DNA from: a virus
Reading direction: 5' to 3' (one strand)
Virus record (IMG/VR): IMGVR_UViG_3300025769_001005
Coordinates: 1-21,417 of that record
DNA length: 21,417 nt
The notes under the pieces: generated by a model
What the model saw: the letters and a program-made list of their open reading frames with translations, nothing else
What the model was told of the DNA's origin: nothing
Databases searched by the model: none
Shown here: positions 9,998 through 19,730 of the stretch, piece after piece
Numbering within the stretch: position 1 is the stretch's first letter
Layout: the number at the start of each line of letters is the position of its first letter
Made by a program: the position numbers and the translations under genes

Positions 9998-10228
9998 TTA
10001 TTTTTCTTTTTTACTTATGCTTTTTTGAGACGCTAGATGTTCTTCTATGGCTTCCCACACTTCTATATTAGACCAGTGTGCTTTGACACAATCAGATATA
10101 TCCTCATGTAACACTTTCAACATTTTAATATCCATAGTCACTGGACTACCTGTGTTGTCTACAATGTGTTTTATTTCTTGTTTTGTTAAGCTAAGTTTAA
10201 GTTCTCCGTTTTGATACATTATTCTCAT
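9998..10228 (-). CDS. Hypothetical protein downstream of DNA polymerase, 76 aa
   Basis: I chose ATG 10228, which overlaps the polymerase TGA as ATGA and has GGAGAAG upstream, over an in-frame TTG at 10243. The protein begins MRIMYQNGELKLSLTKQEIK with a short beta hairpin, continues as mostly helical (MDIKMLKVLHEDISDCVKAH, EVWEAIEEHLASQKS) and ends in a basic tail. Translational coupling to the polymerase suggests a replication accessory, but I recognise no family. Confidence 0.6.
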   Translation of the reverse strand: MRIMYQNGELKLSLTKQEIKHIVDNTGSPVTMDIKMLKVLHEDISDCVKAHWSNIEVWEAIEEHLASQKSISKKEK

Positions 10229-12105
10229 TTTGCTTCTCCCCAATTGTTTCCTATTGCTACATCGACCTTAGAAGGAACACTCATTTCAATCGTGTTTTCC
10301 ATAATATCGATAACTTTTTTCTCCACTTCAGGATCACCATTAAGACTAATGGCTAGTTCATCGTGAATTTGAATCATAGGATTGATACCTTCTTTATCTA
10401 AATCAATCATGGCTTTTTTTGTTTGATCAGCCGCTGACCCTTGTATCAACCTATTTAAAGCTTTATACGTCCCTGATCTTTTCAAAGGAGTATATTCACC
10501 ATACTCTTCTTTAGCTCTATCCAAAGGATAAGCCTTGTAAGAACCAAATGCTTTTGGCTCCCATAATTCAAAACGACATCTTCGACCTAAGAAAGTCTTC
10601 ACTGCACCTTTTTTATTCGCATGATCAGATACTGCATTAGCTAACTGTCGAACAAAAGGAACTCTCTCATTGTATTGTTTAATCAAAGACTTGCCTTCCT
10701 CAGGATCAATACCTAATTGATCAGATAATTTTCCTACACCCATACCATAAAATAGTCCTAAATTTATTGTTTTAGCGCTCTTACGAGGTATGTTTCCTAT
10801 TTCAGCCATGATTGTATGAAAATCTGTTTCTTTATTTTCGTTATAAGCTTTCACAATTTTTTCAGCACCCTCTAGTTTCACGATATTTGCATAGTGACTA
10901 ACGAGTCGTGGCTCTTGTTGAGAGTAGTCAAAGGAACCCCACTTCTCTCCTTCTTCAGGCAAAAACAATCCTCGAACTAAAGAACCGATTTTAATATCTG
11001 ATTGAGCATCGTCTTTCGCAGGAATTTGTTGAAGATTAGGGTTAGAATAACTAAATCGACCTGTCAACGTACCACCATTTTCTGTTCGTAGCTGATTAAT
11101 ATTTGCATGTATTCTTCCATTATGTTGATATTTTTCTATCGTATGAAGGAACGTGGTCCGTGCCTTGTTGAAATTTCTGGCCTGAACAATTGCCTTGGGT
11201 ACAGGATGAGGATGAAACTCTAAAAAGCTTTTTGTAAAACTAGGATTACCTTTATCTGTTTTAGGATATTCAATCTTACATTGATCAAAAACAGTGGCAA
11301 TAGAACGAGCAGCCCATATATCACATTTGAGCTCTGTCTTATCAAAAATAAATTTCATTAAATCGTTTTCTTTTCTAATAAAAGTTTTTTCAGCTTTCTT
11401 TAATTGTTCTAAATCAACTCTTACGCCTTTTTTTCTCATCTTCATAAGAATAGGTATAAGGTCAGTTTCTAAATCAAAAACTGTTTCAAGATCTTGTTGA
11501 ACTATTTCAGGTTTTAATCTATCCCAAAGTTTTAAAGATAGCACTGCATCTTGTTCTGCATACTCTCCTACATATTGAGAAGGTATTTTAAACATTTCGC
11601 TTTTAGGATTAACACCCCATTGTGCTGCTGTTTCATTTAAAAGAAATTCGTTTTTACTTTCAGCTAAATACTCCTTTGATACTGCATTCAAAGAATAACT
11701 AAATTTGTTTTCATTAATTAATGGAGCAGCAATCATTGTATCAATGATACGACCATTCCATTTGACTCCTTCAGCCTCTAACCAACCAAAGTCGTAGGTA
11801 GCGTTATGAGCTATCTTTTCTCCTTCGCCTGAAAGCATTTCATTTAGCCAGTCAAACACGACTCGTGGATCGTGATTAAATCCTGTCTCATGTCGAATAG
11901 GATAATACCCCTTCCAACCGTCTACAGCTATGGCAACACCAATTATTTCTCCGTCATTAGTAGCCCAACCTGGGCCTTTTTCCATAATGTTTGGATCCTT
12001 AGTCTCTAAATCTATTGCAATTTTATCTGCGTCTTTGATGTTTGGAAAATCCATAGGTGGAACCCACTCGGATTTTGGTTTAAACATCCCTATTTGTTTA
12101 CTCAT
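10225..12105 (-). CDS. polA: Family-A DNA polymerase with 3'-5' exonuclease, Leu-762 type
   Basis: This is the phage replicative polymerase, 626 residues, near Klenow-fragment size. The proofreading domain shows Exo I IAIDLET (Asp32, Glu34), Exo II HNATYDFGWL and Exo III YAEQDAVLSLKL. The polymerase domain shows GRFSYSNPNLQQIP, motif A DYSQQEPR (Asp393), motif B RKSAKTINLGLFYG (Arg441, Lys445, Tyr453) and motif C IHDE (His581-Glu583). There is no 5'-3' exonuclease domain. The residue equivalent to E. coli Phe762 is Leu449. That substitution is common in marine viral PolA and has been linked in virome studies to slower-replicating or temperate phages. I see no DnaJ-like insert of the HMO-2011 type. 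The start overlaps the helicase stop as ATGA, so the two are translationally coupled. Confidence 0.97.
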   Translation of the reverse strand: MSKQIGMFKPKSEWVPPMDFPNIKDADKIAIDLETKDPNIMEKGPGWATNDGEIIGVAIAVDGWKGYYPIRHETGFNHDPRVVFDWLNEMLSGEGEKIAHNATYDFGWLEAEGVKWNGRIIDTMIAAPLINENKFSYSLNAVSKEYLAESKNEFLLNETAAQWGVNPKSEMFKIPSQYVGEYAEQDAVLSLKLWDRLKPEIVQQDLETVFDLETDLIPILMKMRKKGVRVDLEQLKKAEKTFIRKENDLMKFIFDKTELKCDIWAARSIATVFDQCKIEYPKTDKGNPSFTKSFLEFHPHPVPKAIVQARNFNKARTTFLHTIEKYQHNGRIHANINQLRTENGGTLTGRFSYSNPNLQQIPAKDDAQSDIKIGSLVRGLFLPEEGEKWGSFDYSQQEPRLVSHYANIVKLEGAEKIVKAYNENKETDFHTIMAEIGNIPRKSAKTINLGLFYGMGVGKLSDQLGIDPEEGKSLIKQYNERVPFVRQLANAVSDHANKKGAVKTFLGRRCRFELWEPKAFGSYKAYPLDRAKEEYGEYTPLKRSGTYKALNRLIQGSAADQTKKAMIDLDKEGINPMIQIHDELAISLNGDPEVEKKVIDIMENTIEMSVPSKVDVAIGNNWGEAK

Positions 12106-13706
12106 ATTCTATATGCCTCCCGCGATTGTGGCGTTATTATAAATAAATTTTCTTTAGCTCTAGAAAAAGCAACATAAAATAATCTATGTTCGCTAATCGG
12201 ATTAATACGATATTCTTCGTATGCCATTTTTCCTATATCTAATGAAACAATAACATTGTCTGCTTCACCACCTTTTTGTTGATGAATAGTAGATAATGTT
12301 ACTCTTGGTTCTAAGGCTAAGTCTTCGCCTCTTGTTTCTAAGTTTTCTAAGTACGCTTTTGTTTCTGTATTAATTGTTGTCATTACTTCTGTCCAAGGCG
12401 TGTCAAAGTCAACTGTTAATCCAAAATTATCTTTCAGATCTTTGAAAGATAATTTCTTATCAGGAAAAGCTTTTCTTTGTTCTGCGATAAGTTTTTTATT
12501 ACCACGAACTACGTATTCTTTTCCTAAACACTTGTATAGATTTTCTATCAACCTTATAGGAACTTGATTGCTTTCATTTCTCATCAAATCTTTCCAAGTA
12601 AGAATAGCATTTCTTTCCTTACTTCCAATAGAATATCTGTATTTACTGTCTTTTAATTTAACTCTAAAAAATATATTTTTCTTTCTCATGACTTCTTCCA
12701 TGTCATCACGAATAGTTCTTGTTCTACCCATTATTAACCATGAACCTTGGTTCATATCTAAGTGATACATGCCTCTAATAAACTCAACAGATCCATCTCT
12801 GTTAGCAGGAGACCATTTAATATCATCATAACCTATGATCTGTTCCTCAACACGATTAACAATTTCCCAAACTTTTCTTGGAACTCTTTTTGATTTATCC
12901 AAAACAATTATATTTTTAGCTTCATCTTTAACTTGTATTGCTTTTGATACGTCTGCATCTGCCCAAGTATAAATAGCCTGATTAGGGTCCATAGCGAGGT
13001 AACTTTTTTCTGAGTTTCTCCATATTTTTTCTGCCATTTTCCACTGTATCGTAGACATGTCTTGAGACTCATCAAAGAAAACAACCTTAAAAGCCTTATA
13101 AAAGCTTCCACTAACATAGTTAGTAATTAAGTCAGTAAAATCTACCTTAGGTCCTTGATCTTTAACTAGATACCCATTAGTTCCATTTGTAAATTTTTCA
13201 TAACCAAAGTTTTTGTAGTCTCTTAATCCCTTATCTATGTACTCTAGTTTGTGCCAAATAATATCTTTTGCGAACATAGCCCAACAATCACGTAAAGGTA
13301 TATCTCTTCTTTTTGCTTTTTCTATAAGATCGACATATTTGTCGTCATAGTTGTTGAAAAATATGTCATCATCATTATTAACGTTAATATTAATCCTAAG
13401 TTCATTTGATATGTTCCTCCAATCATTGTTGCTTAGTATATGCTCTCTCGTGAGGCCCATTTGCCTTAATGCGAAAGAGTGTAAAGTGCTAAAATTTTCT
13501 AACTGATTTAATGGTACTTTAAATTTTTGAGAAGCTCTTTGTTTGGCCTCATCAACTGCTTTGTTAGAAAAAGAAAAAAAAGCTATCTCATCTATGTTTA
13601 CTTCATTAGATAAATATTCTTCTATTTTATCTAAAATAAAAGTTGTCTTACCTGTCCCTGGAGGACCAATAACAACAGTAGGAGTTTTCTTATCCAATAA
13701 ACTCAT
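12102..13706 (-). CDS. UvrD/Rep-like superfamily 1 helicase
   Basis: This is an ATP-driven DNA helicase of 534 residues, compact compared with UvrD (about 720). Motifs in order: Walker A GPPGTGKTT (14-22); FFSFSNKAVDEAKQRA (Ia); FSTLHSFALRQMG; motif II VVFFDESQD; motif III LAMDPNQAIYTWADAD; motif IV-like WLIMGRTR; motif V STIHQQKGGEADNVIV; motif VI YVAFSRAKENLFI. All core residues are present. It lies between the polymerase and the ABC-GNAT gene and overlaps both (17 bases with the upstream gene, four with polA). It probably unwinds template for the polymerase, since no DnaB- or gp4-type helicase is seen in the window, though one could lie outside. Confidence 0.93.
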   Translation of the reverse strand: MSLLDKKTPTVVIGPPGTGKTTFILDKIEEYLSNEVNIDEIAFFSFSNKAVDEAKQRASQKFKVPLNQLENFSTLHSFALRQMGLTREHILSNNDWRNISNELRININVNNDDDIFFNNYDDKYVDLIEKAKRRDIPLRDCWAMFAKDIIWHKLEYIDKGLRDYKNFGYEKFTNGTNGYLVKDQGPKVDFTDLITNYVSGSFYKAFKVVFFDESQDMSTIQWKMAEKIWRNSEKSYLAMDPNQAIYTWADADVSKAIQVKDEAKNIIVLDKSKRVPRKVWEIVNRVEEQIIGYDDIKWSPANRDGSVEFIRGMYHLDMNQGSWLIMGRTRTIRDDMEEVMRKKNIFFRVKLKDSKYRYSIGSKERNAILTWKDLMRNESNQVPIRLIENLYKCLGKEYVVRGNKKLIAEQRKAFPDKKLSFKDLKDNFGLTVDFDTPWTEVMTTINTETKAYLENLETRGEDLALEPRVTLSTIHQQKGGEADNVIVSLDIGKMAYEEYRINPISEHRLFYVAFSRAKENLFIITPQSREAYRI

Positions 13707-14787
13707 GTGCGTAGCAAACCCTTTCTTTATGTTTTTCTCTTAACTCATGTGAATAACCACCAAAAGTTCTTATTTTAGTTTCACCTTTTTCTAGTCTTTT
13801 TAATTCTTTCTCATAATCTTTCTTTCTATTTTGTCTATTATGAGTCGTTGGTCTCCACTTTTCAGGATGAGCTTCTCGATACTCACCGAAACGAGGATGA
13901 GCTGTTTTAGAAAAGAAGCGATGACCGAGGACCGTGAATTGTTTTGCCACTGCCTCAGACAAACGAACGCCTAACCCTAATCCTTGAAAATCAGGAAGTA
14001 TCACTGTCCTGTGTTCCCTCCACGCTTTTTCTTTGATTGTTCCTGAGGGAAAAAAGACAACTGATGAAAATCCGACTGGGGTTCCGTTCCATGTTGCGAC
14101 CCAACATCGTGTAGCTGTACTGATGTTTCCTGTGAGATAGTGATGCTCAGCGAAGTATGACCAAATTTTGTGGGAACAAGGAACGACTTCCAAAACAATC
14201 TTGGGTCGCCTAAGAGACCCCCGTGATACCACCTTACTAGAGTTTGTATCAAACACCCAGTCAGGTTGTAACCAGTCAATGATATCATAGTGACATGACG
14301 CAAAGACAACATTTTTAATATCTTTCTTTCGAATAAATTTTTGCAAAGCATTAGAACAAGACTTCGCTACATTACGATCCACCACACTGGTAAATTCATC
14401 AATAACTGCATTATCTTTTACTCTCCTAGCTAAGTCAGATCGAAATCTTTCTCCTGTACTTAAGACGTGATATGGTCTCATCCAAGAGGGAATAGAATTA
14501 AATCCAACAGAAGATAATCTATCTTGTGCTTCTTCTGGTGTATCAAAGTGAGAACAAACAGCTTTGTTTGAGTCCCACTGAATATTTTCTTCTTCTCCAT
14601 ATTCTTTTAATAAACTTGATTTACCACTTCCTGAAGCTCCAACAATTAAACCAATATTAAATCCTTCTTTTGGTTTTTGAAACTCTGGTAGAGTAAACTC
14701 TGTTTGACCGTCAAATTGATAGTCAAACATTCTACTGATCTCATTAGTAATGTTATCAGTTTGTACTTGTGATCTAAGTTTTTTCAA
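13690..14787 (-). CDS. ABC-type ATPase fused to a GNAT acetyltransferase (COG2401-like)
   Basis: The protein has 365 residues. The N-terminal domain is a soluble ABC nucleotide-binding domain: Walker A GASGSGKSS (50-58), signature LSTGE (109-113), Walker B AVIDE (127-131), D-loop SVVD and switch His166 (ASCHYD). The C-terminal half is GNAT-like: HHYLTG (215-220), CWVATWNGTPVGFSSVVF strands, then VILPDFQGLGLGVRLSEA with the acetyl-CoA pyrophosphate loop Gln268-Gly273. ABC ATPases fused to an acetyltransferase are known as COG2401, with no assigned function. The start is TTG in a TTGA overlap with the primase stop, after GAGGAGG. There is no transmembrane segment and no permease nearby, so it is not a transporter. 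Protein or nucleic-acid modification coupled to ATP hydrolysis is possible, but the substrate is unknown. Confidence 0.85.
   Translation of the reverse strand: MKKLRSQVQTDNITNEISRMFDYQFDGQTEFTLPEFQKPKEGFNIGLIVGASGSGKSSLLKEYGEEENIQWDSNKAVCSHFDTPEEAQDRLSSVGFNSIPSWMRPYHVLSTGERFRSDLARRVKDNAVIDEFTSVVDRNVAKSCSNALQKFIRKKDIKNVVFASCHYDIIDWLQPDWVFDTNSSKVVSRGSLRRPKIVLEVVPCSHKIWSYFAEHHYLTGNISTATRCWVATWNGTPVGFSSVVFFPSGTIKEKAWREHRTVILPDFQGLGLGVRLSEAVAKQFTVLGHRFFSKTAHPRFGEYREAHPEKWRPTTHNRQNRKKDYEKELKRLEKGETKIRTFGGYSHELREKHKERVCYAHEFIG
13919..13937 (+). repeat. GC-rich 19-mer, copy 2
   Basis: CGATGACCGAGGACCGTGA differs by one base from 3798-3816, in the same orientation relative to the window. Here it lies antisense within the GNAT part of the ABC-GNAT gene, so protein homology cannot explain the match. 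Confidence 0.5.
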
Positions 14788-16340
14788 AACGGTATTTCCT
14801 CCTCGTTATTTTCTTTTTTCATATCAGGAATATCTAGCTCCACATCTTCTATGTTCAACTGTTTTATTTTCCATAGTCTCATTCTTGTGTTCTTAACACT
14901 CCTAATAGTGTCTTCAGCATCATATTCTTCTTTTAATCTCATTGTTACCCAAGGTCTTGACTCCTTAAAATCATTTCTTTTTAAATGATCCATTAGGTCT
15001 TTGAGAGCAAAATAAGTAAATCCTTCTTCAGTATAAGATTTACCTAAAAATATATCTGCTATTGTTAGAGCCTCACCTTGATGTAAGCAAAACTCTTCTA
15101 ACAATTCTTTAAACTCACCCTTCTTTGTGACTTCCTCAGGTGGGTGATCAATAGAAATAGACTCAAATAAATCACTATATGTTTGATTCCATTCTGCTGA
15201 ACTCATATTCATGATGCCTTTATTAAGTTGTTCTAAACAAGCTTGAATAATTTTTTTATGTGTCATCAAGTCTTCTGTATTAGCTATCTCTATTCTTCTG
15301 TCATCGACATTTAAAAAATAACGAGGAGGATCAGATTTATATACTTTTAAATCGGAATAAACTGGATGATCTCTATCACCTTCACTTCCAATACCAAATT
15401 TTCTTTTTTTACAAAGTCTCTTATTACATAAAGACTCAATCGGTGGTTGAGAACAACGATACATATACTTAGGTGCACCATTACCGTCACTTTGACTTAC
15501 TTGCTTAATCACTATTAAAACTTCATCAGATTTAAGAGGAGGTGAAATATAGTTTCTGTTATACTCTTCAACTAACTCCTTGTAATTATCAGGATCAGCC
15601 TTACGATAGTATACGCCTACATTGAACAGAGCGTTATTACGTGATCCGTCAGAAACACCCTGTTCAGTTAGTATTTGTAGGCATGGAGGTCCGTCTTTAA
15701 TAACCTCGTTCTTGAAATCGGTTTTAATCGACTTGAGAGCACCAACAACGAGACTATCGTAGTGAGAAAGAAACTCTTCTAAACTTAAAGCGTTACCATT
15801 TTGATCTAATCCATATCGACTTCTTCCATGGTAAGGCAAATTAATCCAACTTCCTGTATCTCTTTTTTCTTCACCCTCTCTTTGATACAGTTCAATTTGT
15901 TTTGGAAAGACTTCAGCTTTGGGATAGCCTAGGGCTGTTGCCATTTCACTTAATTTAGTTTGCATATCCTTTGCTGTGACATACATTTTTGTAAATAAAT
16001 ATAAATGTGCTCCACCACTTTTTGATAAACACATAATTAAAGGAAACTTTTTTTGTTTTACTATTTTCAGTAAAGCTTTGTGATCAAGAGGGTAAACATC
16101 GATATCAATAACACCAAACTTACATTTGTCTTCATCATTGATAGGAACAATACCCATGGCAGGATATTCTCCTTTTAGGTGTAGTTCAAATTTTTCCAAG
16201 GTCGGTGCTTCGTGGACCGTGGTCATTTTAGCCTCTACCTTTAGCCCTTCTTGTGGCTCGTTCTTTTTATAAAAGACACCATGAGCCCTCTCAAGACCTG
16301 TAAAGACCTCTTTAAACTTCTTAATTAATTCTAATTCCAT
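14784..16340 (-). CDS. AEP-superfamily (TOTE-like) primase with SSB-type C-terminal tail
   Basis: This 518-residue protein should make primers for phage replication. The catalytic core shows the archaeo-eukaryotic primase pattern: GVIDIDV (Asp79, Asp81, metal ligands) and SKSGGAHLYLF with His112. EVFPKQIELY then TGSWINLPYHGRSRYG follow, a combination I associate with TOTE-type AEPs. A cysteine group (Cys296, Cys305, Cys310 in RCSQPPIESLCNKRLCKKRK) may bind a metal or cluster. The C-terminal ~120 residues look helical. The final residues NNEEEIPF resemble the acidic tip of bacterial SSB. GAGAGG lies before the ATG, just outside the structured gap. The GAG-GAG codons of the tail also serve as ribosome site for the downstream ABC-GNAT gene. 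It is not a DnaG or gp4 primase. Confidence 0.85.
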   Translation of the reverse strand: MELELIKKFKEVFTGLERAHGVFYKKNEPQEGLKVEAKMTTVHEAPTLEKFELHLKGEYPAMGIVPINDEDKCKFGVIDIDVYPLDHKALLKIVKQKKFPLIMCLSKSGGAHLYLFTKMYVTAKDMQTKLSEMATALGYPKAEVFPKQIELYQREGEEKRDTGSWINLPYHGRSRYGLDQNGNALSLEEFLSHYDSLVVGALKSIKTDFKNEVIKDGPPCLQILTEQGVSDGSRNNALFNVGVYYRKADPDNYKELVEEYNRNYISPPLKSDEVLIVIKQVSQSDGNGAPKYMYRCSQPPIESLCNKRLCKKRKFGIGSEGDRDHPVYSDLKVYKSDPPRYFLNVDDRRIEIANTEDLMTHKKIIQACLEQLNKGIMNMSSAEWNQTYSDLFESISIDHPPEEVTKKGEFKELLEEFCLHQGEALTIADIFLGKSYTEEGFTYFALKDLMDHLKRNDFKESRPWVTMRLKEEYDAEDTIRSVKNTRMRLWKIKQLNIEDVELDIPDMKKENNEEEIPF

Positions 16341-16353
16341 ATTAACCTCTCAA

Positions 16354-16481
16354 ATTAATAGCCTCTCCTTTAATTAAGTTGGGGCATGGTTCGAAAGGAG
16401 GCTCGAAAAAACCACACCCCAACCTATTAAGAGTGGGAATAGGAGGATAAGACCACTCTTAACTTTACGCGGGCTATTAAT
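16354..16481 (-). ncRNA. Predicted three-way-junction RNA between SSB and primase genes
   Basis: Minus-strand RNA from this gap has three long stems. The closing stem is ATTAATAGCC (16481-16472) with GGCTATTAAT (16363-16354), ten perfect pairs. Hairpin B is TTAAGAGTGG (16462-16453) with CCACTCTTAA (16436-16427), ten perfect pairs and a 16-base loop containing TCCTCCT. Hairpin A is GTTGGGG (16423-16417) with CCCCAAC (16384-16378), then GG/CC and TTCGA/TCGAA, with loop GCCTCCTT. Both loops show CCTCC, the anti-Shine-Dalgarno core. Loop A could pair with AAAGGAG at 16372-16366. The closing stem begins in the SSB stop codon, and the primase ribosome site lies just outside its other arm. It could be a cis-regulator of the primase, a processed small RNA, or an origin-like element on DNA. 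No known RNA family is recognised. Confidence 0.65.
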
Positions 16482-17323
16482 CAGAACGGTATGTCGTCAC
16501 CATTCTGCGAGGAATCCCCTTGAGGGGAACTTTTAGCATCATCCTGTGTCGGAGTGATTTCAATATCACCACTATGAATTGATTTTTCGAATTGTGTCGC
16601 ATCTTCAATTATTGTCTGAACACTCTTCAGCCCTAATTCATCAATCCATTTATTTTCAATGATGACCCAACCATGCCAAGAACCCTTTGAGTTCTTTTCT
16701 TTGACCGTAGATAATGTGTATGCACGAGCAAAGTCTTTTGGTTGATAAATTTCATCACCTTCAACACGTCTCTGATTGGACATTAATGAATTCCATGTCC
16801 TTGATTTTTTTAATTGTGTTGATTTCATTTTAATGATCGCTTTACTCCAAGAACCACCTTCTTCAAGTACGATCACATAATGTTCAGCAGTATTTTCGAT
16901 GTAGGTATCTGATTTTCCTACAAAGCGTTCTTTGTTATCATCACCTCGAACAACTTTACCTTCCATTTGGAATTTTTGAAATTGCTCTGGAGTATATATG
17001 TTAACTGGAGCTCCTGATCCTTCTCCACGCTCTGCCCATTCTACAAATCTTCTGCGATAGTAGACTGGTAAAACGGTTATGGAGTCATAAACTCTGTTAG
17101 TAACAGTATTGAAAATCTGTCCTAACTTCGCACCTTCGATATACTTACCGTCATCTTCTTCTAGCTGAGGAGCACCCTTACTTAAAATATTAAAATAAGG
17201 AATTTGATAGTCTTCAGCATCTCTCTTTGAGAGTGAGGGACCCGCCTTTAATAGACCACTTAGTGTCGCTACGTCTGTTCCCTTTTCTTGTTTCGCTACT
17301 TGCTTTTTTACTGTCTCTGTCAT
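16481..17323 (-). CDS. Probable single-stranded DNA-binding protein, 280 aa
   Basis: The ATG follows directly on the upstream TAA with AAAGG before it. The protein begins with a charged leader, then DYQIPYFNILSKGAPQLEED, beta-rich segments (YDSITVLPVYYRRRFVEWAE, EHYVIVLEEGG, SKAIIKMKSTQLKKSRTWN, WHGWVIIENKWI) and aromatic residues suited to stacking on bases. The last ~45 residues are Ser/Asp/Gln-rich and disordered, ending SSQNGDDIPF, nearly identical to the DDDIPF tip of E. coli SSB. Position next to primase and the acidic IPF tail support an SSB role. The core is not a recognisable bacterial OB-fold SSB by eye, so the assignment depends mainly on tail and context. Confidence 0.6.
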   Translation of the reverse strand: MTETVKKQVAKQEKGTDVATLSGLLKAGPSLSKRDAEDYQIPYFNILSKGAPQLEEDDGKYIEGAKLGQIFNTVTNRVYDSITVLPVYYRRRFVEWAERGEGSGAPVNIYTPEQFQKFQMEGKVVRGDDNKERFVGKSDTYIENTAEHYVIVLEEGGSWSKAIIKMKSTQLKKSRTWNSLMSNQRRVEGDEIYQPKDFARAYTLSTVKEKNSKGSWHGWVIIENKWIDELGLKSVQTIIEDATQFEKSIHSGDIEITPTQDDAKSSPQGDSSQNGDDIPF

Positions 17324-17866
17324 TTATTTACCTTTCTTGATATTGACTTTGTGTCCTACAAATACTCCAAAAGTATCCATAGGAAGTTCTTTTCCACCCT
17401 CAACCATTTCACGAATGAAACCTCTGAGAGTAGACGGTTCGACTTTAACATTTCTGTCAGTGTCTAACCCTTGGTTAGCTAAATCAGAAAAAAGATTTTT
17501 TGCTTTATCATCTTCAGCTCTACCAAATTTTACTATGACTTGATTTTTTATCAAGTCTTCATACCCATTATCACGCAACCATTCAAAAGCTTCTTCTTGT
17601 TTTTCTTTTGAAATAGTTCCTGTATAAAACGGTTTTATTTCTACGTTAGAACCGTCTTTCATTTTTATAGAAGTGACTCCACGCTCTTCAAACAACTGAA
17701 CTAAACTTTCATTTGCTTTTCGAAGAACTTCTTTTTTTACTTTTATAAGAGCCTCTAGATCTTCTACTTCTTTTTCAGCTTTCAAATAATCTTGAGAGCC
17801 TTTAGATATAGGATCAACTTCCGTTACTTGGAAATCTTTTTCCTCACGTCTTAAATTAATAGCCAT
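17324..17866 (-). CDS. Conserved phage early protein with coiled-coil N-terminus, 180 aa
   Basis: A strong AAAAGGAG site precedes the ATG. Residues ~25-65 form a likely coiled coil (YLKAEKEVEDLEALIKVKKE). Then come a short beta segment (VTSIKMKDGSNVEIKPFYTG), EEAFEWLRDNGYEDLIKNQV, VKFGRAEDDKAKNLF and a C-terminal STLRGFIREMVEGGKELPMD with FGVFVGHKVNIKK. This arrangement recurs in proteins beside replication genes of many podovirus-like phages, always of unknown function. It abuts the SSB-like gene and is presumably co-expressed, so a replication accessory role is an inference. Confidence 0.65.
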   Translation of the reverse strand: MAINLRREEKDFQVTEVDPISKGSQDYLKAEKEVEDLEALIKVKKEVLRKANESLVQLFEERGVTSIKMKDGSNVEIKPFYTGTISKEKQEEAFEWLRDNGYEDLIKNQVIVKFGRAEDDKAKNLFSDLANQGLDTDRNVKVEPSTLRGFIREMVEGGKELPMDTFGVFVGHKVNIKKGK

Positions 17867-17884
17867 GTATTACTCCTTTTTATT

Positions 17885-18232
17885 CTAATTATAAATGTCA
17901 ACTCGAATAGGAAAATAATCTTTTTCTATTCTATCGTATTTTAACATATTATATCTACCATTAGATATATTACTTACTACCGAACAAGTCAACCCTATCA
18001 ATGCTGGATCTCCAACTAAAAGTAAATAATCGTTGTCTTCAAAGTCTTTTAGAAGAGTTCTGAGTTTTCGAATAGTAGGTTGTGGAGACATTACGACCTG
18101 TTTATTTCCGTCAAACAAAATTATAACTTCTCCAAATCTTTCAGCTTGAGTGTAGTCTAACGATCTCAAAGTTCCGTCAGGATATTTTCTCATTACGTTT
18201 TGTACAATATATACTTTACTTTTTTGTGTCAT
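17885..18232 (-). CDS. Conserved phage protein, first gene of the replication operon, 115 aa
   Basis: I chose the ATG at 18232 (MTQKSKVYIVQNVMRKYPDG) over an upstream in-frame ATG at 18289. The latter would run across the divergent spacer and into the facing gene. Visible features: KVYIVQN strand, LDYTQAERFGEVIILFDGNK, VVMSPQPTIRKLRTLLKDF, then NDYLLLVGDPALIGLTCSVV, ISNGRYNMLKYDRIEKDYFP. The 'LSPxPTxRKLR ... DYLLLxGDPxxIGxxCAxxS ... GRxxxLKWDRxxxxYxP' pattern is widespread in phage early regions and has no assigned function. As first gene after the operator-like dyad it would be among the earliest made. Confidence 0.7.
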   Translation of the reverse strand: MTQKSKVYIVQNVMRKYPDGTLRSLDYTQAERFGEVIILFDGNKQVVMSPQPTIRKLRTLLKDFEDNDYLLLVGDPALIGLTCSVVSNISNGRYNMLKYDRIEKDYFPIRVDIYN

Positions 18233-18269
18233 TTTATTATATTCTCTTATATAGAATAAAATATTATAT
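18233..18269. promoter_or_regulatory. Divergent promoter/operator spacer with 11-bp dyad
   Basis: This 37-base spacer separates the start codons of the minus-strand replication operon and the plus-strand SNF2 operon. It contains TATTATATTCT (18235-18245) and AGAATAAAATA (18253-18263), an inverted repeat matching at 10 of 11 positions around a 7-base centre. TATAAT (minus strand, 18241-18236) and TATAGAAT (plus strand, 18250-18257) could be -10 boxes. With so little room, transcripts would be nearly leaderless. A repressor or activator binding here could control both operons. The exact promoters are guesses. Confidence 0.5.
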
Positions 18270-19730
18270 ATGTTAGTAGAAAAATACAAGTTTAAAACAA
18301 AGCCTATGGAACATCAATTGGTTGGTCTTGCTGGGATGATGAATTCTTTTGACAAAGATACGCCTGAGTATGCTTTGTTTATGGAAATGGGTTGTGGAAA
18401 AACAAAAGTTTTAATAGACGGTGTTTCTATATTATTTGATAACGGAAAAATAAATAATCTTTTAGTCATTTGTCCTAATGGAATTAAATATAATTGGAAA
18501 GAGGAATTAGCAAAACATTTAGCTGATCATATTGAATATGATGTTCATGTCTGGGAGGGAGCTAAAACAAAAAAAGAACAAACTGAAATTAAATCAAAAT
18601 TATTTGCTACCGATAATAAATTAAAAGTCTTAATTATGAATATAGACTCTATCATTACAAAGAATGGAAGTTCTATCGCTGAAAAATTTACTTACACTGA
18701 CAAAACTTTAATGTGTGTTGATGAGTCTACTATTATTAAAAACGGTTCAGCTAAAAGAACAAAGAGATGTATTAAAATTGGAACATATGCGAAGTACAGA
18801 GTTATCTTAACAGGATCTCCGATTACTAAGTCTCCTGAAGATTTATATTCTCAATGTGCTTTTTTAAACGAGGATCTTTTAGGTTTTAGTTCTATTTATA
18901 CTTTTAAAGCTAGGTATTGCGATCAAATGAAAATGAGTTTTGGTGGAAGAAGTTTTAATAAAGTAACTGGATATAAACGCTTAGATGAACTGACAGAGAA
19001 AATTAGAAATTTTTCTTATCGAGTCACGAAAGATGAAGCGTTGGATTTGCCTGATAAAATTTATTTAAAGAGACGTGTACCGATGACCGATAATCAATTG
19101 AAAGCTTATGTGATGATGAAAAAATTAGCCTTAGCTGAAATAGAGGGAGAGCAATTAACAACAGCCACGTTGATCGCTCAATTGAAAAGACTTCATCAAA
19201 TAGCCTGTGGTTATATGACAACAGATGAAGGAAACTTAATCGACTTTTCAGAAAATAGAGTCAAAGAGTTGATTGATACAGTTGAAGAGAGTGGTGGAAA
19301 AATAATTATTTGGTGTTCTTATAGACATAACATTAAAACTGTTATTAACGCTCTTGATAAAAAATATGGAAAAGGATCAGCAGAAGGTTTTTATGGTGAA
19401 ACACCTTCAACAGAAAGACCTAAAATTTTAGAAAGGTTTAAAAATCCTGATCATCACATGAGATTTTTGGTTGGACACCCACGAACTGGTGGCTATGGAC
19501 TAACTTTAAATATAGCAAGTACTATGATATTTTATTCTAATGACTATGATCTCGAAATACGAGAACAAGCTGAAGCTAGAAATCATAGGATTGGTACAGA
19601 GAAGAAAGTAACATACGTTGATCTTATCTGTGAGGGAACGGTAGATGAAAACATTATCAAAAGTCTTCGTTCTAAAATTAACATCGCTACAAAAATAATG
19701 GGCGAAGAATTTAAGGAGTGGTTAATATGA
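18270..19730 (+). CDS. SNF2-like superfamily 2 DNA helicase/translocase
   Basis: A 486-residue ATPase, a minimal SNF2 core. Motifs: N-terminal Q-like KPMEHQLVGL; motif I FMEMGCGKTKVLID; Ia LLVICPNGIKYNWKEEL; motif II LMCVDESTIIKN (DEST instead of DEAH, followed by the IKN typical of SNF2-like phage helicases); motif III VILTGSPITKSPEDLY; motif IV KIIIWCSYRHNIKTV; motif V TGGYGLTLNIAST; motif VI EQAEARNHRIGTEKKVTYVD. The ATG at 18270 has no Shine-Dalgarno sequence and sits 7 bases from the dyad, so translation may be leaderless. Enzymes of this type remodel DNA-protein complexes or translocate on duplex DNA, and phage homologues usually lie in replication or recombination regions. It heads the rightward operon. 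Confidence 0.93.
   Translation: MLVEKYKFKTKPMEHQLVGLAGMMNSFDKDTPEYALFMEMGCGKTKVLIDGVSILFDNGKINNLLVICPNGIKYNWKEELAKHLADHIEYDVHVWEGAKTKKEQTEIKSKLFATDNKLKVLIMNIDSIITKNGSSIAEKFTYTDKTLMCVDESTIIKNGSAKRTKRCIKIGTYAKYRVILTGSPITKSPEDLYSQCAFLNEDLLGFSSIYTFKARYCDQMKMSFGGRSFNKVTGYKRLDELTEKIRNFSYRVTKDEALDLPDKIYLKRRVPMTDNQLKAYVMMKKLALAEIEGEQLTTATLIAQLKRLHQIACGYMTTDEGNLIDFSENRVKELIDTVEESGGKIIIWCSYRHNIKTVINALDKKYGKGSAEGFYGETPSTERPKILERFKNPDHHMRFLVGHPRTGGYGLTLNIASTMIFYSNDYDLEIREQAEARNHRIGTEKKVTYVDLICEGTVDENIIKSLRSKINIATKIMGEEFKEWLI
19081..19090 (+). repeat. Third occurrence of the CGATGACCGA decamer
   Basis: The decamer, preceded by AC as at 3796, encodes part of VPMTDNQ in the SNF2-like gene. The frame matches that of copy 1 (PMTEN), so protein-level coincidence may explain this shorter match. 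Confidence 0.3.

Follow-up and report, generated by a model that had tools for sequence, protein, structure and literature searches.

An intercistronic three-way-junction RNA with an anti-Shine-Dalgarno loop, probably a new viral switch controlling protein synthesis in an uncultured bacterial virus

The gap between the SSB-like and primase genes

The element described here lies in the replication operon of an uncultured bacterial virus, in a stretch of 21,417 nucleotides that was analysed as a whole and that we call the window. It occupies the gap (16341-16480, read on the minus strand) between an SSB-like gene and the gene of an AEP-type primase. The upstream gene had been called SSB in a first-pass annotation made from the sequence alone. 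It encodes a Pam3 gp34-like, functionally uncharacterised protein that ends in an SSB-like DDIPF tail, for which 'SSB' is a plausible rather than an established label. A fold search with a model of this protein gave weak resemblance to OB-fold proteins and no significant match. SSB-type acidic tails end both the primase (EEEIPF-like) and the SSB-like protein. Downstream of the primase, a single ORF (13690-14787) joins an ABC-type ATPase region to a GNAT acetyltransferase domain (phrog_11143), and its start codon, TTG, overlaps the end of the primase gene. The features of the locus are as follows, all of them on the minus strand.

16481-17323, minus: upstream gene, SSB-like, Pam3 gp34-like, with DDIPF tail (Pfam PF23977)
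16354-16481, minus: three-way-junction RNA, whole element (fold z-score, covariance model R1, covariation)
16472-16481, minus: 5' arm of P1, ATTAATAGCC (core without change in 19 aligned sequences)
16463-16471, minus: J12, GCGUAA in most relatives and CACAAAA-like in L005-L009 (alignment)
16427-16462, minus: P2 hairpin (two-sided changes in 9 of 11 modelled pairs)
16442-16446, minus: CCUCC, the anti-SD core, in the P2 loop (in 9 of the 15 distinct RNAs listed)
16376-16425, minus: P3 hairpin, with a U-rich bulge and a 4-bp apical helix, P3b (two-sided changes in 11 of 15 P3 pairs and 2 of 4 P3b pairs)
16394-16401, minus: P3 loop CCUCCUUU, anti-Shine-Dalgarno (identical in all 15 distinct RNAs listed)
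16365-16371, minus: AAAGGAG tract of J31, complementary to the P3 loop (limited to the window's subclade and near relatives)
16354-16363, minus: 3' arm of P1, GGCTATTAAT, stopping just short of the primase SD (GCTATT fixed in 19 aligned sequences)
16346-16351, minus: primase Shine-Dalgarno (SD) sequence GAGAGG, adjoining P1 and partly paired by its extension (predicted to become accessible with a ribosome on the upstream stop)
14784-16340, minus: downstream gene, AEP-type primase (Pfam AEP-TOTE and PriCT_1; phrog_21866, primase)

The three stems drawn by the first-pass annotation are all in place. P1 is a perfect helix of 10 bp between ATTAATAGCC (16481-16472) and GGCTATTAAT (16363-16354), starting, in the window, at the third base of the upstream stop codon, TGA. 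P2 pairs TTAAGAGTGG (16462-16453) with CCACTCTTAA (16436-16427), with G16463, the last base of J12, forming a G-U pair at its foot. P3 is a 15-bp stem that includes three G-U pairs (16425-16411 with 16390-16376), and the apical P3b (16406-16403 with 16394-16391) encloses the loop. Folded as RNA alone, without proteins, Mg2+ or pseudoknots, 171 nt of the sense strand reach a minimum free energy of -60 kcal/mol (z-score -5.2), and none of 200 shuffled sequences folded as low; the predicted structure of the minus-strand gap is a three-way junction, and the opposite strand gives a z-score of -3.5. The window contains no further copy of the element, and a tRNA/tmRNA search found neither. We also considered an intrinsic terminator or attenuator in the gap, and rejected it because a search from 16100 to 18400 for a G+C-rich hairpin followed by a U run found none.

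Conservation of the RNA among related viruses

Scanning viral contigs with the two flanking proteins, with confirmation by tblastn, yielded 45 and 21 loci, many of which share a contig. We found the complete element, in the same place, in 23 contigs of what we call group A (L001-L003, L005-L022, L037 and L049), representing 18 distinct sequences besides that of the window; in L004, also of group A, it is cut at its 5' end. The primases of this group are 88-99% identical to that of the window, and the SSB-like protein goes down to 62%. In the sampled relatives the element is always directly between the two genes and adjoins the SD. A covariance model, R1, built from 19 aligned distinct sequences, recovers the element in group A loci, while the other phages tried gave no hit. 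Eight group A contigs, scanned over their whole length, each have a single copy; eight contigs from groups B and C have none (contigs not rated complete). An exact-pattern search of bacterial genome contigs gave no copies, a primase-based search confirmed no relatives in bacterial genomes, and phage isolates contain no similar DNA, their closest primase being 39% identical. Pattern hits in unrelated phages were discarded as chance matches, one of which led to the tandem hairpins described below.

That three such nested helices are unlikely by chance, as was first argued from one sequence, is borne out by the relatives, where the three-helix fold recurs and both pairing and covariation exceed the shuffled and slid controls. 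In the model-fitted alignment, 22 of 39 pairs changed on both sides, a number not reached in any of 500 shuffles; pairing holds in 89.5% of cells versus 33-45% with slid partners. A plain MAFFT alignment, which is not fitted to the structure, points in the same direction, with 83.3% of cells paired and 18 pairs changed on both sides; here the pair count was matched by 11 of 500 shuffles and the covariation score by none of 500. On the primase tree, P2, P3 and P3b accumulate 25 branch-wise compensatory double changes versus 1-4 in ten slid registers. Covariation had been sought in all three stems, and it is found in P2 and P3; P1 (AATAGC/GCTATT) shows none because it never varies. A search of Rfam with the window element, at the gathering threshold and at E up to 10, gave chance-level matches only. 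The three-way-junction RNA is real, covarying and without an Rfam match.

The pairs also inform about the strand. In the hand-paired arms of P2 and P3 the sense RNA has 30 G-U pairs versus 4 A-C pairs, and the fitted alignment has 78 versus 24; an A-C pair is a G-U pair of the other strand. These counts lean somewhat toward G-U, the pairs having been taken from folds of the sense strand. The excess agrees with the z-scores of the two strands given above. It follows that, judging from the sequences, selection has most likely acted on the element as coding-strand RNA of the operon and not as a DNA origin. A replication origin acting as DNA, one of the roles initially offered, is in this sense disfavoured, as a DNA origin hairpin would show no one-strand preference for G-U, and the 30 to 4 count speaks against it.

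In most of the distant relatives read, a simple hairpin occupies the gap before the primase. It is GCUAGCCGA/UCGGCUAGC in group C and GCCGGGG/CCCCGGC in DSL-LC04, and short inverted repeats can be seen by eye in the same gap of HTVC027P and 023Pt_psg01. In L146 and L148 the gap holds a perfect hairpin of ~22 bp, and their near relative L145 a short hairpin only; in L173-L179 the upstream gene has its stop codon inside the hairpin; and L166 and L168 carry what appear by eye to be clear intrinsic terminators, for example AAAGGGGCUUAAAGCCCCUUUUUUU. The hairpins and terminators of group C, L166, L168 and DSL-LC04 share with our element their place between the SSB-like and primase genes, but they are single, some being followed by a U run, and have neither P1 nor an anti-SD loop. 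Those gap hairpins that were tried did not match R1. Two sister clades have simpler hairpins and lack the three-way junction, which looks like an elaboration peculiar to group A.

A stop-to-start stem and an anti-Shine-Dalgarno loop

Our analysis adds two features to the first-pass annotation, namely a P1 stem that connects the stop codon with the SD, and an invariant anti-SD loop. In group A, P1 starts at or just past the upstream stop codon and ends beside the primase SD, and in many members the pairing is extended by UUCU of the last codons with AGAG of the SD. From four-fold sites, the invariance of P1 has a chance of ~2e-10. Both P1 and J12 are conserved in their letters, beyond pairing, and pairing alone does not explain those of P1. 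In the free mRNA the predicted mean unpaired probability of the SD varies from 0.00 to 0.57 across 14 members, so that it would be fully hidden in some and only half hidden in others. When a ribosome is placed in silico on the upstream stop, SD accessibility increases in every one of the 14 group A RNAs examined; for ten of these the gain averages 0.40, versus 0.015 with a shuffled gap, although it is small in some members (0.06 in L003 and 0.12 in L016). The same computation gives no consistent gain in groups B and C. Control of primase translation is, with this gating of the SD in silico, the best supported of the roles that had been offered, and the models make it likely that P1 couples the primase to the gene upstream.

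The sequence CCUCCUUU is the 3' tail of 16S rRNA, which pairs with SD sequences. We found it kept in the P3 loop even where P3b is lost (L010 and L016), and around this invariant loop the stems are rewritten among the 15 distinct RNAs listed. With 18% of primase four-fold sites unchanged on the primase tree, eight unchanged loop sites have a chance of ~1e-6; the primase four-fold sites are just 54-66% identical to those of the window. The loop is predicted to be open (mean accessibility 0.79-0.96 in silico), and it can pair over 4-5 bp with every primase SD and, among near relatives of the window, with J31 over as many as 8 bp. A possible explanation, a pseudoknot between the loop and J31, was rejected as the whole explanation: the purine tract of J31 is complementary to the loop in only 7 of the 15 distinct RNAs listed, and GGAG is absent in 8 of the 15 with the loop intact, so that pairing into a local pseudoknot does not account for loop conservation in general. 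In the window, strong pairing of the loop is predicted with other SDs of the operon, those of the polymerase (-14.3 kcal/mol) and of the ABC/GNAT gene (-11.8 kcal/mol). The first of these, GGGAGGC (10225-12105, upstream of the polymerase gene), is predicted to pair better with GCCUCC of the loop than with the 16S tail, which reaches -10.3 kcal/mol.

A second, unrelated phage lineage was reached through the chance pattern hit mentioned above. In that contig, L180, two tandem hairpins with anti-SD loops lie in the gap after a small gene. In L182-L186 and L189-L192 loops of CCUCCUU or CUCCUUUC are kept while the stems are rewritten with their pairing intact (for instance L182:2650-2735, L186:2615-2702 and L189:2693-2765), and L187 and L188 lack the tandem hairpins. 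Rfam gave nothing at threshold for this lineage; its weak hits include ar14, the best-known name among them, with 18.5 bits versus a threshold of 58.8. Among 209 distinct strong hairpins from all the loci gathered, CCUCCU occurs in 13 loops and most of its permutations in none, a scan that is not an unbiased test of enrichment because the loci were partly chosen for the motif.

Proposed mechanism, alternatives and known systems

Taken together, we propose that the element is probably a new viral switch controlling protein synthesis, and that it would act within the operon's sense mRNA as an intercistronic riboregulator. P1 would join bases at and just after the upstream stop to bases just before the primase SD, hiding the latter in part. 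A ribosome finishing the SSB-like gene would cover the 5' arm of P1, which would then open and expose the SD, and the primase would be made mainly from mRNA whose upstream gene is under translation. P3, and in many members also P2, would present a loop with the anti-SD sequence of 16S rRNA, which may pair with the primase SD, with SDs elsewhere in the operon or, should the element leave the transcript, with those of other mRNAs; there, capture of the SD would block initiation, as with alpha-r14 sRNAs. We infer both activities in the cell, as well as the choice of SDs, from conservation and modelling. Considered singly, SD capture by the loop is nearly as likely as coupling through P1; that both operate together is our leading but tentative proposal, which we place slightly below an even chance.

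It is also possible, with clearly lower probability, that the element acts in trans as a small RNA, processed or separately made, whose anti-SD loop would silence strong-SD mRNAs of host or phage, with P1 merely closing the RNA. Local pairing with the primase SD does not require so long a loop, the loop is predicted to pair strongly with the polymerase and ABC/GNAT SDs, alpha-r14 sRNAs act in this way, and the anti-SD hairpins of the second lineage lie away from replication genes. Nevertheless, a promoter scan at the element gave no excess over shuffles, no terminator was found there, and the constant place between two genes and beside the SD speaks against an independent RNA. Somewhat less probable still is an element confined to cis, with coupling through P1 and a pseudoknot of the loop with the primase SD or with GGAG of J31, and no target elsewhere. 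The coupling computation and the pairing of the loop with every primase SD, or with J31 in near relatives, would fit; however, the RNAs that lack GGAG keep their loop, and 4-5 bp would not fix eight loop bases. Finally, a binding site for the phage SSB-like protein, a host ribosomal protein of the 16S 3' end region such as bS21, or RNase III, serving autoregulation or mRNA processing, could account for the conserved letters of P1 and J12 and for the simple hairpins in most distant relatives read, but it is improbable, as no known protein-binding leader was matched in Rfam and the exact 16S tail is more simply a base-pairing sequence.

If the riboregulator proposed above is correct, a phage RNA within the mRNA of a replication module would combine imitation of the 16S rRNA 3' end with a stop-to-start clamp. 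It would offer a testable case of a phage setting the ratio of its replication proteins and perhaps steering translation in the infected cell, and it suggests that loops of anti-SD sequence are worth a systematic search across phage genomes. More broadly, though rather doubtful at present, phages may have repeatedly evolved rigid-stem RNAs that show the ribosome's anti-SD and take SDs from the ribosome, the clamp of the replication operon being one instance and the tandem hairpins a second.

No description of such an RNA in phages was found in the open-access literature searched, nor in Rfam. The closest likeness is with the alpha-r14 sRNAs of Rhizobiales (NfeR1, SmelA075 and SmelA099), named 'cuckoo' RNAs, in which, as in the window element, the anti-SD loop is conserved while the stems diverge. 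These sRNAs carry ultraconserved CCUCCUCCC anti-SD hairpin loops on divergent stems, several per RNA, and silence mRNAs by pairing with their SDs (PMC3927594, PMC10746234). They differ from our RNA in that each is a chromosomal gene of its own and has three or four hairpins that all carry CCUCCUCCC, whereas the window RNA is an intergenic three-way junction with CCUCCUUU on the primase leader, and its second loop has CCUCC only in 9 of the 15 RNAs. The window element has no match to RF02344 (ar14) in Rfam, and since architecture, exact motif and separate gene are not shared, we do not file it as a member of alpha-r14. The second likeness is with the helices of stop-to-start translational coupling, such as the Min Jou helix of RNA phages, where the SD is masked by upstream pairing and opened by the translating ribosome; our models predict such opening here, with masking that varies among members. 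Unlike in helices of that type, in the window RNA the masking pairs form the closing stem of a ~130-nt three-way junction, and the partner lies at and just after the stop codon.
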